A stretch of 63,425 nucleotides of DNA from Dehalococcoidia bacterium (GTDB lineage Bacteria > Chloroflexota > Dehalococcoidia > Dehalococcoidales > UBA2162), in NCBI GenBank assembly GCA_011191975.1, contig DUFA01000132.1, positions 1-63,425 on the forward strand. The letters are read 5' to 3'. Made by a program: the position numbers and the translations under genes. This document shows positions 1,027-5,824 of the stretch, piece after piece. Numbering within the stretch: position 1 is the stretch's first letter; each line of letters begins with the position of its first letter. The notes under the pieces are model-generated. The model saw only the letters and a list, made by a program, of their open reading frames with translations. It had not been told where the DNA came from and ran no database searches.

Positions 1027-1092
1027 TTCAATATATGTTCAATATGTTCAATATGTTCTTGACATCTTCATGCTAATACAATATACTTTAGC
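1027..1092 (+). promoter_or_regulatory. Promoter with upstream tandem repeats and -10 inverted repeat (leader copy 1)
   Basis: TTGACA at 1059-1064 and TATACT at 1082-1087 are separated by exactly 17 nt, a near-consensus housekeeping promoter. Three TTCAATATG-type repeats (1027-1037, 1038-1046, 1047-1055) run directly into the -35. GCTAA (1072-1076) and TTAGC (1088-1092) form an inverted repeat enclosing the -10, in the position of a repressor operator. The 26 bases from GCTAATAC onward are identical in the second leader at 3532. Transcription should start near 1094 and run about 395 nt before the lipoprotein start at 1490. Confidence 0.8.
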
Positions 1093-1172
1093 ACCAAATA
1101 GAATTAACCTAACATATTGTCCCTTTACCACCTTACACCTTCTTGAGTTATAGAGGTGAATGAGATGAGGTT

Positions 1173-1216
1173 AAAGACACCGCAATCAGTTTATCCTGTG
1201 GTTTGCGGTGTCTTTT
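1173..1216 (+). terminator. Leader attenuator hairpin (copy 1)
   Basis: AAAGACACCGCAA (1173-1185) pairs with TTGCGGTGTCTTT (1203-1215) and the stem ends in a short T run, giving an intrinsic terminator inside the leader, about 80 nt after the predicted transcription start and before the structured RNA. The second leader has the equivalent hairpin at the same relative place with different loop sequence but conserved pairing. A GAGGTGA Shine-Dalgarno-like motif at 1153-1159 precedes the hairpin, so a short translated leader peptide may couple ribosomes to termination; this is inference. Confidence 0.7.
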
Positions 1217-1269
1217 CTATTTCCACGTTGATTTACCGGACGTCGAAAAGGGGATATGGAATATGGGAA

Positions 1270-1412
1270 GGCTGGCCCTGCTGGGGGAAACCAGGGTGCT
1301 GAGTGTTGACAGCGCACGTCGGCTTAAATACCACCCATACCCCTCCCGTGTCCGGAGCCCTGGGGGAAATCGGGCTTTAGCAGCAGGGTCAGCCGGAAAA
1401 GGAGGTGCATTA
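1270..1412 (+). ncRNA. Putative structured cis-regulatory RNA (copy 1)
   Basis: A 14-bp stem joins 1270-1283 (GGCTGGCCCTGCTG) to 1381-1394 (CAGCAGGGTCAGCC) with one G-U pair. Inside lie a small hairpin around GTGCTG...CAGCGCAC (1297-1316), a C-rich strand with ACCACCCATACC, and an AGCCC...GGGCT hairpin with a GGGGGAAA loop (1356-1376). An AAAAGGAGGTG motif follows at 1397-1407 without a start codon at the right distance. The element is repeated at 3747-3901 with the fold kept. It does not match the riboswitch classes whose cores I can recall (cobalamin, TPP, SAM, c-di-GMP, T-box and others). Confidence 0.6.
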
Positions 1413-1489
1413 TCGAAAAAACACACCTGTACACATTAGACCAATCGATAAATAATGAATTATGACAAGTAAACTTATACGGAGGTGCT

Positions 1490-3328
1490 ATGAAAATCGA
1501 TTATAAGAAACTACTCTGGGTATTAGTGAGCTGTCTTATGGCACTTTCACTAATTATTGCTTCCTGCGAGACTCAGGAGACAGGTAAGGTTAAAGAAGAA
1601 GACGAAGGACCTGCAAAGGTTATTATCACAGAATCAAAAGAACCTCAAATCGGTGAAAGAAAAGAAGAAGTCACGACACCAAGCGATGAACCCCAATACG
1701 GTGGTATTTTCACGGCTGCTCAGGTAGCCGACACTTCTTGCTGGGATGCCACCACCGGCTTTGACCTGCTGGGTTGGCAGATTTCAATTACAAACGAACC
1801 CCTTATGGCTGGAGATTGGGCGAAAGGGCCTGCCGGAACATATGAAACTGACTGGCGATTTGGTGCAGTCGCGTATGCCAACATGTGTACAGGTCAATTG
1901 GCAGAAAGTTATGAAATCCCGGATAACGAAACTCTCATATTCCATATTCGCCCGGGTGTTCATTGGTGGAACAAACCGCCGGCAAACGGTAGAGAATTTA
2001 CTGCCGAGGATGCAGCCTGGAACATAAAGACCCAGTGGGATCTTCCAATCGGCAACTTCCAGGCATTCTTCCCTCCGGAAGAACGATTGATATCGGTTGA
2101 AGCAACGGATAAATATACAGTCGTCCTTAAGGTTCCACTTAACACTCAGGGAATTCATTTCTGGGAGGATGGCCAGCGCGCCTACATGATGTGCCCGGAA
2201 TTGTATCCCACCCAGAAAGAATGGGAAAATGCTCTCGGCACTGGCGCTTTTATGATAAAGGACTATATTCCTGGCGCAATGATATCCATGGAGAGAAATC
2301 CCAACTACTGGCAAACCGATCCGTGTGGACCCGGCAAGGGTAACCAGCTTCCCTACATAGACGGGTTGAAGTTCCCCGTTGTTCCAGACCTGTCAGCCCG
2401 GGAGGCAGCTTTCCGGACGGGGAAAATAGACACTTTTGGAGCTAATTGGGAACAATGGGAAGTATTCCAGAAAACTATGAATTACGAGTTTGAATGGGTG
2501 TACACCTATGGATGGCACTCCCTACCGACAGGCAGGCAGGACAAAGATCTGCCATTCAACGAACTTCTTGTACGGCAGGCAATGAATTTGGCCGTCGATA
2601 AGGTCAGGATACTCGAAGACTACTATGAAGGACACGGATCTCTAATGTGCTGGCCGTACTACGATACTCCAGCATTTGCAGACCTGTACATTCCGCTGGA
2701 GGAACTGTCGACAGAACCGGCGATAGCAGGTTCAATGTGCGGCGTTCAGGAGTTAATGACAGGCGGTAATCCTGAAAAAGCCAAGCAGCTTTTAGCACAA
2801 GCCGGGTATCCTAATGGTTTTAAGACTAATATTTATTCAAGTTCACCAACGGCAACGGACTTGCTTTCTGTCGTAAAGGAAGATCTTGCAAAGGTTGGCA
2901 TCGATATGGAAATAAAGCAGGTTGAACCCTCTATATATAGAGGCATGGATCGTGCTCGTACCTGGGAGGAAATGTGGTACAAAGGCACCAAGCAGCATTT
3001 CCTGCCCCATTACCTGTTCGAGGTCCGTCCCGAATCCAACGACTGCGCTTCATTCTTCGAAAGCCCGAAAGTCAGGGAAGTACTGAAAAGTATCAATGAA
3101 AATCTGGCTGTAGACGACGTTGTCTGGAGAAGCGCTCTTAAAAATCTGACTCCATACCTGCTCGAAGAATCGATTGCCATATGGTTGCCTATACCCTACA
3201 ATTATAACTGCTGGCAGCCGTGGTTGAAGAACTACTATGGTGCTACTACGCTGGGCGCAATGTTACCCTTCCACCATACATACTATAACTGGATTGACAC
3301 TGAGCTAAAGAAGGAAATGGGATACTAA
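1490..3328 (+). CDS. Family 5 ABC substrate-binding lipoprotein (oligopeptide/nickel type), paralog 1
   Basis: 612 residues, usual size for extracellular solute-binding family 5 (PF00496; DppA/OppA/NikA). The N-terminus is a lipoprotein signal with lipobox IIASC and predicted lipidated Cys26, followed by a roughly 40-residue acidic linker (to about residue 68). Family signatures include EPQYGG-type entry to the mature domain, NPNYW after a turn, and LLAQAGYPNG. Start is fixed by GGAGGTG six bases before the ATG. No permease or ATPase genes accompany it, so it is an orphan receptor that must borrow a transporter or act as a sensor. Its first 26 residues and its leader closely match the next gene. 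Ligand cannot be deduced. Confidence 0.88.
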   Translation: MKIDYKKLLWVLVSCLMALSLIIASCETQETGKVKEEDEGPAKVIITESKEPQIGERKEEVTTPSDEPQYGGIFTAAQVADTSCWDATTGFDLLGWQISITNEPLMAGDWAKGPAGTYETDWRFGAVAYANMCTGQLAESYEIPDNETLIFHIRPGVHWWNKPPANGREFTAEDAAWNIKTQWDLPIGNFQAFFPPEERLISVEATDKYTVVLKVPLNTQGIHFWEDGQRAYMMCPELYPTQKEWENALGTGAFMIKDYIPGAMISMERNPNYWQTDPCGPGKGNQLPYIDGLKFPVVPDLSAREAAFRTGKIDTFGANWEQWEVFQKTMNYEFEWVYTYGWHSLPTGRQDKDLPFNELLVRQAMNLAVDKVRILEDYYEGHGSLMCWPYYDTPAFADLYIPLEELSTEPAIAGSMCGVQELMTGGNPEKAKQLLAQAGYPNGFKTNIYSSSPTATDLLSVVKEDLAKVGIDMEIKQVEPSIYRGMDRARTWEEMWYKGTKQHFLPHYLFEVRPESNDCASFFESPKVREVLKSINENLAVDDVVWRSALKNLTPYLLEESIAIWLPIPYNYNCWQPWLKNYYGATTLGAMLPFHHTYYNWIDTELKKEMGY

Positions 3329-3374
3329 TAATCCGTCTGTACAGCATAATAGTTATCGACTCGTAAGTTTAGAC

Positions 3375-3408
3375 AGTAGGAGGTAGAGAATAATCTCTAC
3401 CTCCTACT
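3375..3408 (+). terminator. Perfect 15-bp hairpin after paralog 1
   Basis: AGTAGGAGGTAGAGA (3375-3389) pairs perfectly with TCTCTACCTCCTACT (3394-3408) around a four-base loop. It lies 47 bases beyond the stop codon and has no good T run after it, so it may be a weak terminator or an mRNA 3' stabiliser. A related AGGAGGTAGA hairpin follows the second paralog at 5795. Confidence 0.65.
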
Positions 3409-3496
3409 TATTAGTGTACTGTAAAGGTTATTTTTTAATATAACGAATATACAATCAAATTCCCAATAAATACGAGTAAGTATCGAAGCTGTTAGT

Positions 3497-3552
3497 TTCA
3501 GATTACCTTCAGATTACCTTGACATCTTAACGCTAATACAATATACTTTAGC
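3497..3552 (+). promoter_or_regulatory. Promoter with upstream tandem repeats and -10 inverted repeat (leader copy 2)
   Basis: Two perfect TTCAGATTACC repeats (3497-3507, 3508-3518) abut TTGACA at 3519-3524, which is 17 nt from TATACT at 3542-3547. GCTAA (3532-3536) and TTAGC (3548-3552) flank the -10 exactly as in copy 1. The upstream repeats differ in sequence from copy 1 but begin TTCA and have a unit of 9-11 bases, close to one helical turn. Confidence 0.8.
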
Positions 3553-3622
3553 ACCAATACATATGTAAAACCTAATATACTGTTCCTTTACCATTTTCCA
3601 CCTTCTACCTAAGGAGGTGATT

Positions 3623-3646
3623 ATGATGAGATTAAAGGCACCGTAA
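3623..3646 (+). CDS. Possible seven-codon leader peptide MMRLKAP
   Basis: A strong AAGGAGGTGA at 3611-3620 is followed by ATGATGAGATTAAAG and a TAA stop that falls in the 5' arm of the attenuator hairpin. Copy 1 has the same SD and an ATGAGGTTAAAG start (1165) but reads CAA instead of TAA and so stays open for 42 codons. The conserved MRLK(T/A)P could be a regulatory peptide, or the conservation may reflect only the RNA stem. Confidence 0.35.
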   Translation: MMRLKAP

Positions 3647-3680
3647 ACCATTGAACCTGATGGTTTGTGGTGCTTTTTTT
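3634..3680 (+). terminator. Leader attenuator hairpin (copy 2)
   Basis: AAAGGCACCGTAAACCA (3634-3650) pairs with TGGTTTGTGGTGCTTTT (3661-3677) including three G-U pairs, followed by a seven-T run to 3680. This is a textbook intrinsic terminator placed about 80 nt into the leader, 280 nt upstream of the lipoprotein start. Its position relative to promoter and structured RNA is the same as in copy 1. Confidence 0.8.
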
Positions 3681-3746
3681 ATTAACCGATATTGGACTTA
3701 TTGAACCAAGGTATAAAAGAAGTGTATGAATATAATACTATATACA

Positions 3747-3901
3747 GACTGACCCTGCTGAGGGAAAACAGGATGCTGAGTGTTGACAGCGCACGTCGGC
3801 TCAAATACCACCCATACCTCCGTATCCGGAGCCCCGGGGGAAATCGAGCTTTAGCAGCGGGATCAGCCGGAAAAGGAGGTGCATTATAGGAATAATACAC
3901 C
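3747..3901 (+). ncRNA. Putative structured cis-regulatory RNA (copy 2)
   Basis: The closing stem pairs 3747-3760 with 3855-3868; relative to copy 1 it keeps pairing through U-A to U-G changes but has two mismatches. Blocks conserved with copy 1 include TGCTGAGTGTTGACAGCG, CACGTCGGCT, ATACCACCCATACC, TCCGGAGCCC and GGGGGAAATCG. A further hairpin, GGTGCATTAT (3878-3887) with ATAATACACC (3892-3901), sequesters the AGGAGGTG motif. The lipoprotein start at 3964 has its own AAGGAGGTG. Confidence 0.6.
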
Positions 3902-3963
3902 GGTACAACTCAGATAGATTGAGGAAAGACAAATTTTAATGAGTAAACTGTTAAGGAGGTGTT

Positions 3964-5745
3964 ATGAAAATCGATTATAAAAAAATATTCTTGGTATTAG
4001 TAAGTTGCCTCATGGTACTTTCACTGATTATTGCTTCTTGCGGTACTAAGGAAACAGATAAAGAGCAGGATGGTTATCGTGATCCCGATGAACCGAAATA
4101 CGGCGGAACGATGACCTTCGCCTGGTTCGAACCTCAAGGATGGGATCCATATTACACATTTATGGTGAGTTGCAGCACGCTTTATGTTGTCAATGAAGAG
4201 CTATTAATGGGTGACTGGAGCAAGACACCTGCTGGAGATGGAAGCGCAGGTATCGGTGGTTTCCTTGGTTATGCCAGCCGTTTAACCGGTGACCTTGCCG
4301 AAAGCTGGAGTATGCCGGATGAAGATACTCTGCTTTATAACATCCGCCAGGGCGTTCACTGGCAGAACAAACCACCGGTAAATGGCAGAGAATACGATGC
4401 CTATGATGCCGCCTGGGCTATCAATCGCCTGACATCAGCCCCCACCGGAGCACATCGCATGATTAGTCCTCCGGAAGAATATATTCTCGGAGCTACTGCT
4501 CTGGATAAATGGACCGTTGAAGTTAAGGTGCCTCCAGAAGCCCAGGGATTACAGGCTATCTATGTCGGTTCCTGGCTATACCATTATCCCAAGGAGGTAG
4601 TCGATACCTACGGCGACATGAAGGACTGGAAAAATGTTGTGGGGACAGGACCTTATATGCTTCAAGATTATATCACAGGGAGTGTACTTACGTTCGAGCG
4701 TAATCCGAACTACTGGCAGCACGATCCGATACACCCGAAAAACCAGCTTCCTTACCTGGATGAATTGAAGTGGATGATTATCGGTGACGCCTCGACGCAG
4801 CTGGCAGCATTCCGTACCGGTCAGGTTGATATATCATACGGTTTAGCGATAAATACGGAAGATTCGAAGACGCTAATCAACGAGAATCCCGAATTACACT
4901 ATGTAACGCTTCCTGGCGGTTTTGATGCACATTTATATTTCAGAGTAGATAAACCGGAGTTACCCTGGAAAGATACCAGAGTCAGGCAAGCGATGACCCT
5001 GTGTATTAACAAACAGGAACTTATAGATGACTACTACGGCGGAGATGCAAACCTGCTTGGTGCAGTATATCCTCCGGATAAAGCCTGGGAACCATTCTAT
5101 ACTCCTCTCGAAAAACAGCCGACCAAGCCGACTACTCCTGATTCACGATGCGGTGTCCAGGAACTGTTCACGTTCGATGAAACTACTATCCCCAAGGCAA
5201 AGGCTCTGCTTGCCGAAGCAGGATATCCTAATGGTTTCAAGTGCCAGATAATCTCCTCCAGTCCTGCTCAAACAGACTTCCTGTCCATCATCAAGGAATA
5301 TTTTTCCGTGGTTAACGTCGAACTGGAGATACAACAGCTTGAAGGCAGTATCGTCGGCGGCATGAGACGCTCCAGATCCTACGAGGAAGGTATTTACACC
5401 GCGTCACCCACAGCAGCCTTCCCTTATGATATGCACAGCACCCGCATCGAAAGTTTCGACTGCTTCAGTTATTATGAGCACCCCAAGACGAGAGCAGCCT
5501 ACGAAGAGCAGCGAAAATACGTAATGAAGGACGACGTTAAATACGCTTCTACTCTCAAAGAAATTACCCCTTTCATTCTGGAGCAGTGCGTCGGCATATG
5601 GTGTCCGGTTCCACGGAGTTACCGAATGTGGTGGCCCTGGGTGCAGAACTATCATGGCGAGTCCTCACTAGGCTGCGATGACCAACTCCAGATATACTGG
5701 TACATGTGGATAGACGAAGAGATGAAACTAGGTATGGGCTATTAA
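3964..5745 (+). CDS. Family 5 ABC substrate-binding lipoprotein, paralog 2
   Basis: 593 residues. The signal peptide is nearly identical to that of the previous lipoprotein (MKIDYKK..., lipobox IIASC, Cys26), but the linker is much shorter and the binding domain has clearly diverged. Conserved family features are EPKYGGTM near residue 43, ERNPNYWQ, RVRQAMTLCINK and LLAEAGYPNG. AAGGAGGTG lies just before the ATG. The closest features upstream are the attenuator and structured RNA; a stem-loop follows at 5795. Like its neighbour it has no linked permease, so the pair probably arose by duplication of a gene together with its leader, followed by ligand specialisation. Confidence 0.88.
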   Translation: MKIDYKKIFLVLVSCLMVLSLIIASCGTKETDKEQDGYRDPDEPKYGGTMTFAWFEPQGWDPYYTFMVSCSTLYVVNEELLMGDWSKTPAGDGSAGIGGFLGYASRLTGDLAESWSMPDEDTLLYNIRQGVHWQNKPPVNGREYDAYDAAWAINRLTSAPTGAHRMISPPEEYILGATALDKWTVEVKVPPEAQGLQAIYVGSWLYHYPKEVVDTYGDMKDWKNVVGTGPYMLQDYITGSVLTFERNPNYWQHDPIHPKNQLPYLDELKWMIIGDASTQLAAFRTGQVDISYGLAINTEDSKTLINENPELHYVTLPGGFDAHLYFRVDKPELPWKDTRVRQAMTLCINKQELIDDYYGGDANLLGAVYPPDKAWEPFYTPLEKQPTKPTTPDSRCGVQELFTFDETTIPKAKALLAEAGYPNGFKCQIISSSPAQTDFLSIIKEYFSVVNVELEIQQLEGSIVGGMRRSRSYEEGIYTASPTAAFPYDMHSTRIESFDCFSYYEHPKTRAAYEEQRKYVMKDDVKYASTLKEITPFILEQCVGIWCPVPRSYRMWWPWVQNYHGESSLGCDDQLQIYWYMWIDEEMKLGMGY

Positions 5746-5794
5746 CAGTCCAACTACCCAGCATTGTGGTACTTAACTAGTGACTCACGTACAG

Positions 5795-5824
5795 AAGGAG
5801 GTAGAGGAAAGTATCTACCTCCTT
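5795..5824 (+). terminator. 11-bp hairpin after paralog 2
   Basis: AAGGAGGTAGA (5795-5805) pairs with TCTACCTCCTT (5814-5824), loop of eight bases, 50 bases after the stop. It resembles the hairpin after paralog 1 in both place and sequence, supporting duplication of the whole unit including the 3' region. Confidence 0.65.

Follow-up and report, generated by a model that had tools for sequence, protein, structure and literature searches.

The rdhA motif (WRC-34-1) is a weak riboswitch candidate that is reported to have 18 representatives, mostly from Dehalococcoides, and to lie immediately upstream of rdhA (PMC11109978). Metabolite riboswitches with pseudoknotted aptamers and translational platforms are built on a multi-helix core closed by a P1 helix, with a loop–strand pseudoknot and near-invariant unpaired joints, and are found in 5′ leaders before transport and enzyme genes. 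Ribozymes of the hepatitis delta virus (HDV) type contain a pseudoknot with an inserted hairpin, and their P1 starts at the cleavage site. Transcription attenuators combine a leader open reading frame (ORF), encoding a conserved peptide, with a terminator and a mutually exclusive antiterminator. Here, we focus on a pseudoknotted RNA element in a 63,425-nt stretch of DNA from a Dehalococcoidia bacterium (GenBank assembly GCA_011191975.1, contig DUFA01000132.1), which is referred to throughout as the window. The element lies in the 5′ leaders of two tandem receptor genes and belongs to a new structured RNA family of approximately 122 nt that is specific to the Dehalococcoidales; a receptor leader that looked like a local peculiarity turns out to be one instance of an RNA found throughout the lineage.

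An RNA family of the Dehalococcoidales

The window contains two copies of the element on the forward strand, an intact one at 1270–1394 (copy 1) and a degenerate one at 3747–3868 (copy 2). A BLAST search with positions 1255–1490 finds 14 places in the source genome and matches in 30 of 101 relatives. A covariance model, R1, was constructed from 31 aligned copies with a hand-written structure and recovers approximately 145 copies in 59 of 156 Dehalococcoidales genomes, with up to 16 per genome. No copy is found by R1 outside the order in a 301-genome sample of the phylum (about 285 genomes outside Dehalococcoidales), and scanning 84,980 GTDB species with an exact pattern returns 35 stretches; the titles of 34 name Dehalococcoidia, Dehalococcoidales or Chloroflexota, and that of the remaining one Deltaproteobacteria.

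The consensus fold comprises five helices and a pseudoknot. P1 (14 bp) encloses P2 (GGGG/CCCC) and P4 (CCCG/CGGG), P3 is a hairpin within P2, and P5 (2 bp) accompanies P4, while the pseudoknot is formed by CCAGGG, located between P2 and P3, pairing with CCCUGG in the P4/P5 loop. Across 109 distinct sequences, 93.0% of cells hold standard pairs and double-sided changes are seen in 36 of the 38 pairs; none of 500 shuffles reaches any of the measures, and at most 59% of cells are paired when partners are slid by 1–3 columns. The pseudoknot acts as an independent test of the fold, because it is absent from the search model and the alignment was fitted to nested helices only. It is 97.1% paired and has 79 double-sided cells, in five of its six pairs, against a single such cell for the nested fold (AGGG/CCCU) that RNAalifold offers for the same strand, which was rejected. 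Conserved structure with compensatory changes, one mark of a cis-acting leader, is therefore present, and the prediction of an earlier note on this DNA, that a covariance-model search of the Dehalococcoidia would find many receptor genes preceded by the same leader with covarying stems, is borne out for the RNA. Conservation is highest at GGGG, AAA, CUUAA, CCUCCCGU and GUAAUCGGG, and the joints AAA, CUUAA and GUAAU are conserved and unpaired. Single-sequence folding of the leader gives no significant stability for copy 1 (z −0.4) and a modest signal for copy 2 (z −2.2), so that the evidence had to come from comparison. A likeness of AAAUACCACCC to 23S ribosomal RNA was dropped, since the sequence is not in the family consensus.

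All 14 core pairs (P2, the pseudoknot and P4) are kept by 101 of 113 aligned copies. Copy 1 of the window likewise has 14 of 14 (121.5 bits with R1), whereas copy 2 (71.6 bits) has only eight, with three bases gone from P2′/P4 and with P2, P4 and the pseudoknot partly broken; the earlier view that both genes have a complete leader does not hold. Other weak copies in the source genome are located at L023, L126 and L016. At the last of these, a single leader upstream of a binding-protein gene holds three tandem copies (L016:2198-2706, reverse strand), the middle one being weaker at 57.7 bits.

The RNA is also present in viral DNA. An IMG/VR phage contig carries an intact copy (L244:1729-1851; 112 bits) flanked by a RecT-like gene and a DUF5131 gene, within a packed operon that also includes RepO and terminase genes, and a further IMG/VR contig with RecT-like and integrase genes carries a copy of 79 bits (L246:5356-5480). 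A viral match of 22 bits (L247) was judged to be due to chance. The phage contig copy, the variation in copy number from 0 to 16 among related genomes, and the tandem and decayed copies in the source genome are features of a mobile or REP-like repeat that is kept by copying and not by function in host genes. This explanation is already disfavoured and we consider it very improbable, given that the signal for target-site duplication is weak at best (4.3% versus 1.5%), the copies are strongly biased in orientation with respect to genes, the pseudoknot covaries, and the RNA is 95–98% conserved between species at fixed loci while the flanks diverge.

A self-cleaving ribozyme, or an element that processes the mRNA to give it a defined, structured end, would account for a compact pseudoknotted fold with conserved unpaired joints and no common expression platform. 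The occurrence of copies in 5′ and 3′ positions, in tandem and in phage resembles known small ribozymes, and the strand order P2-PK-P3-P2′-PK′ is reminiscent of the HDV-like pseudoknot. However, the RNA has no similarity to Rfam ribozymes, and the closing P1 that encloses the fold is a departure from the HDV topology, as is a P4 enclosing the 3′ pseudoknot strand; a ribozyme therefore appears quite unlikely.

Comparison with other known RNAs leads to no established class. In the window and the loci of 18 relatives, Rfam 15 at gathering level gives no match except a tRNA. Relaxing the threshold to E 10 adds nothing beyond chance-level hits to unrelated families. Cobalamin (RF00174) and molybdenum cofactor (Moco; RF01055) riboswitches were considered because of the target genes, many of which use a corrinoid (RdhA, class II ribonucleotide reductase (RNR), corrinoid proteins and B12-binding radical SAM proteins) while others use Mo/W cofactors (Mo hydroxylases and AOR). 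Most targets in the source genome, however, are binding proteins without such a cofactor, and cmscan finds no match to either riboswitch at E up to 10. With pseudoknotted metabolite riboswitches in general, the RNA shares the architecture outlined above and the leader position; it differs in lacking an Rfam 15 class match and a uniform expression platform, and in having stand-alone copies. The rdhA motif is likewise a structured RNA of the same bacterial group, and copies of the present family stand ahead of RdhA operons in a Dehalogenimonas-like genus. Nevertheless, R1 detects only two copies in each Dehalococcoides-like genome, and with the threshold relaxed to E 5 it still places none upstream of rdhA. 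Judged by position only, the present RNA appears to be distinct from the rdhA motif (PMC11109978).

Genes behind the RNA and a proposed cis-acting role

Genomic context was read for 144 copies with their flanks, of which 138 have a downstream gene. This gene is on the same strand in 108 of the 138, with a median gap of 96 nt, and between co-directional genes 61 copies are sense and 7 antisense (P = 7e-12, with copies that are not fully independent). The RNA thus lies on the same strand as, and close upstream of, a gene more often than expected by chance, which is a further mark of a cis-acting leader. When first genes are clustered, they encode SBP_bac_5 binding proteins (30), class II RNR-like proteins (11), Opp-type permeases (7), radical SAM proteins (7), the 2Fe-2S subunit of Mo hydroxylases (7) and TRAP DctP proteins (6). 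Further first genes encode RdhA, MttB, URO-D, corrinoid protein, ModA-like and other products, so that there are at least a dozen target families. The theme of these targets is uptake together with catabolic or respiratory operons, for many different substrates. In the Dehalogenimonas-like genus, where the RNA is multi-copy, the operons behind it nearly always hold RdhA, class II RNR-like or B12-related radical SAM genes.

Some details of this neighbourhood can be added. Class II RNR-like genes are repeated within one genome and adjoin RdhA genes (L096, L098, L100, L101, L105 and L106); several such pairs are separated by a gene of approximately 90 aa, and the RNA is often found ahead of the RNR-like gene and in some cases directly ahead of RdhA. 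MarR-family genes lie near several RNA copies of the source genome (L015 and L021 and, by likeness, L016 and L024).

From the conserved fold and its placement, we propose that the RNA probably acts in cis, as a module of the 5′ leaders of operons for substrate uptake and for respiration or catabolism, and that it works on translation or mRNA fate. Intrinsic terminators between RNA and gene are rare (5 of 144 copies with a strict finder, which missed a Dehalococcoides one), and control is therefore probably exerted at translation or mRNA stability. Switching between the folded and unfolded states would affect how ribosomes load onto the mRNA of the downstream gene or how long that mRNA survives. 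A perfect anti-Shine–Dalgarno (anti-SD) sequence, CCUCC, is invariant in the RNA and lies buried once P2 and P4 have formed; unfolding would expose it, leaving it free to pair with any downstream SD, and the RNA could thereby carry its own universal off-switch. The trigger may be a metabolite or a protein, and the shared target theme points to one general signal rather than to the substrate of each operon.

In 10 of the 16 source-genome copies, P1 is immediately followed by an SD-like site, compared with 0.8 expected, and the gene lies further away; most of these sites precede a micro-ORF of 2 to 15 codons, with the binding-protein gene behind it. In the window, the site is GGAGGTG at 1401–1407 (forward strand), 6 nt past P1 of copy 1 and with no ATG, GTG or TTG micro-ORF after it, and GGAGGT at 3875–3880 (forward strand) past the copy 2 element. 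The SD-like site after P1 is a lineage-specific feature of the source genome's copies. A search of the 60 nt preceding the RNA copies gives no shared promoter above the level of shuffles (52 versus 50).

Several points weigh against the proposed cis-acting role. The arrangement of SD and micro-ORF is not enriched outside the source genome (7 of 103 copies versus 5.2 expected), and an expression platform common to the whole family was not found. For approximately 30 of the 138 copies the downstream gene is convergent, and some copies come after the 3′ end of a gene; the 80-aa minimum set for ORFs conceals small genes, and the copies are not independent of one another. The RNA of copy 2 is degenerate although gene 2 is intact. 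Finally, at least one copy forms an RNA gene of its own, stand-alone and equipped with promoter and terminator. It is found at the YajQ locus of three Dehalococcoides-like genomes, where synteny is kept and the RNA is 98% conserved compared with 44% and 31% for the flanks, with a conserved promoter (TTGCCA-17-CATAAT) and an intrinsic terminator a few nt past P1.

It could be argued from the YajQ copy that the RNA is chiefly a stand-alone small RNA, trans-acting or structural, with leader copies that are derived and carried by read-through. A source-genome copy that ends in a terminator right past P1 (L021) and 21 copies between convergent genes would agree with this. We consider it rather unlikely in view of the strong sense bias to the downstream gene and the close linkage to particular gene families. 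Furthermore, the second copy in the three Dehalococcoides-like genomes shows 95% conservation and lies ahead of a conserved ORF (26–28 codons) that is followed by a terminator, and some apparent orphans are therefore leaders of small genes. As read from the alignment, this ORF lies approximately 30 nt past the RNA (L088, L089 and L090) and encodes a small membrane peptide, MSxLGLWLILIALILSIGN..., with the terminator behind it.

A more far-reaching version of the cis-acting proposal may be entertained, tentatively and with considerable doubt. The RNA would be a new, Dehalococcoidales-wide riboswitch class, also used by phage, that senses one general metabolite or energy signal; through the built-in anti-SD it would gate operons for uptake and for respiration, organohalide respiration included, with stand-alone copies serving as sponges or sensors. 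The main organohalide-respiring bacteria belong to the Dehalococcoidales, in which the choice among the many respiratory and uptake operons is poorly understood. The RNA family offers a defined handle on this choice, as one ligand or protein screen with the 122-nt RNA could explain the control of dozens of operons.

The receptor gene pair and the block upstream of the RNA

The two genes behind the RNA copies in the window are arranged in tandem on the forward strand and encode SBP_bac_5 (PF00496) lipoproteins of 612 aa (gene 1, 1490–3328; 197 bits) and 593 aa (gene 2, 3964–5745; 184 bits). The proteins are 42% identical, as befits the diverged pair of family 5 lipoproteins that had been described, and no permease adjoins them at the locus, which also agrees with the earlier description. 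There are 41 SBP_bac_5 matches in the source genome, of which approximately nine have the RNA element directly upstream. These matches sit in a 3.3-Mb assembly with a contamination estimate of 8.3%.

The leaders of the two genes are each approximately 500 nt in length and approximately 85% identical when aligned. They share an order of parts: promoter, GCTAA/TTAGC repeat, SD and short ORF, terminator-type hairpin, structured RNA, SD, gene and 3′ hairpin. The earlier note had called the leaders near-identical; the common order stands, while the upstream repeats, the micro-ORFs and the completeness of the RNA differ. In copy 1, repeat search and alignment place AT-rich tandem repeats of CAATATGTT units at 1020–1057, 5′ of the promoter; the counterpart in the leader alignment of copy 2 is an unrelated repeat, CAGATTACCTT, present twice, and tandem repeats are thus not a shared leader part. 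By contrast, the consensus promoter and its inverted repeat are present in both leaders as claimed. The sigma-70-type promoter TTGACA-17-TATACT (1059–1087 and 3519–3547, forward strand) matches 11 of 12 consensus positions in each copy, and the 5-bp inverted repeat GCTAA/TTAGC surrounds the −10 element at 1072–1092 and 3532–3552.

Downstream of the promoter, both leaders have an SD, a micro-ORF and a terminator-type hairpin, but the ORFs are 45 and 7 codons long and share only about six codons. In copy 1 (1152–1216, forward strand), the SD AGAGGTG is followed by an ATG at 1165, the stop codon (1300–1302) lies within the RNA element, and the hairpin at 1173–1216 (fold z −4.4) was read from the sequence and is not listed by a simple terminator scan. 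In copy 2 (3611–3677, forward strand), the ORF runs from the ATG at 3623 to the stop at 3644–3646, and an intrinsic terminator at 3634–3677 is detected by the scan (fold z −7.4). Leaders of this kind recall transcription attenuators. Their ORFs differ as described, and the block is unique to one duplication. The RNA is transcribed after the terminator and cannot serve as its aptamer.

Leader conservation is a mosaic. Identity between the copies is 0.95 for the promoter, 0.75 for the terminator block, 0.49 for the spacer and 0.90 for the RNA, and it extends into the genes, with 0.86 over signal-peptide codons 1–26 and 0.73 at third positions there compared with 0.35 later in the gene. Because the homologous block reaches the signal-peptide codons, duplication or conversion contributes to the likeness besides selection, and indeed explains much of it. 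The argument that the leaders are more conserved than the genes, and hence selected, therefore fails by itself; selection on the RNA is shown by the family.

Searches with the promoter-to-terminator block return only the self-match in the source genome and nothing convincing in 60 relatives (a single 30-nt match, E 0.001). The two-step leader is accordingly not supported as a conserved system, as its promoter, operator, upstream ORF and terminator half is confined to a single duplication in this sample, while the RNA occurs without the upstream block, before many other families, sometimes stand-alone, and is degenerate in copy 2. The block is a separate, local addition in front of the RNA element. 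It could be suggested that the whole leader reflects only one recent duplication or conversion of leader and signal peptide with ordinary attenuation parts, and the earlier note had named occurrence in a single duplication as grounds for giving up its proposal. This account suits the promoter, operator, micro-ORF and terminator block, found only here and continuous with the shared codons 1–26. As an explanation of the RNA element it is barely credible and is refuted by recurrence in 59 genomes with covariation.

The 3′ hairpin noted after each gene is confirmed by repeat search and folding: a palindromic hairpin, GGAGGTAGAG...CTCTACCTCC, lies at 3376–3405 behind gene 1 and another at 5793–5823 behind gene 2. 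Five such palindromes are found in the source genome, each of them 3′ of an SBP_bac_5 gene, whether or not the RNA element is present (the other sites being G000 C17:29549, C42:35152 and C144:23430). The palindrome consists of an SD-like sequence pairing with its own complement.

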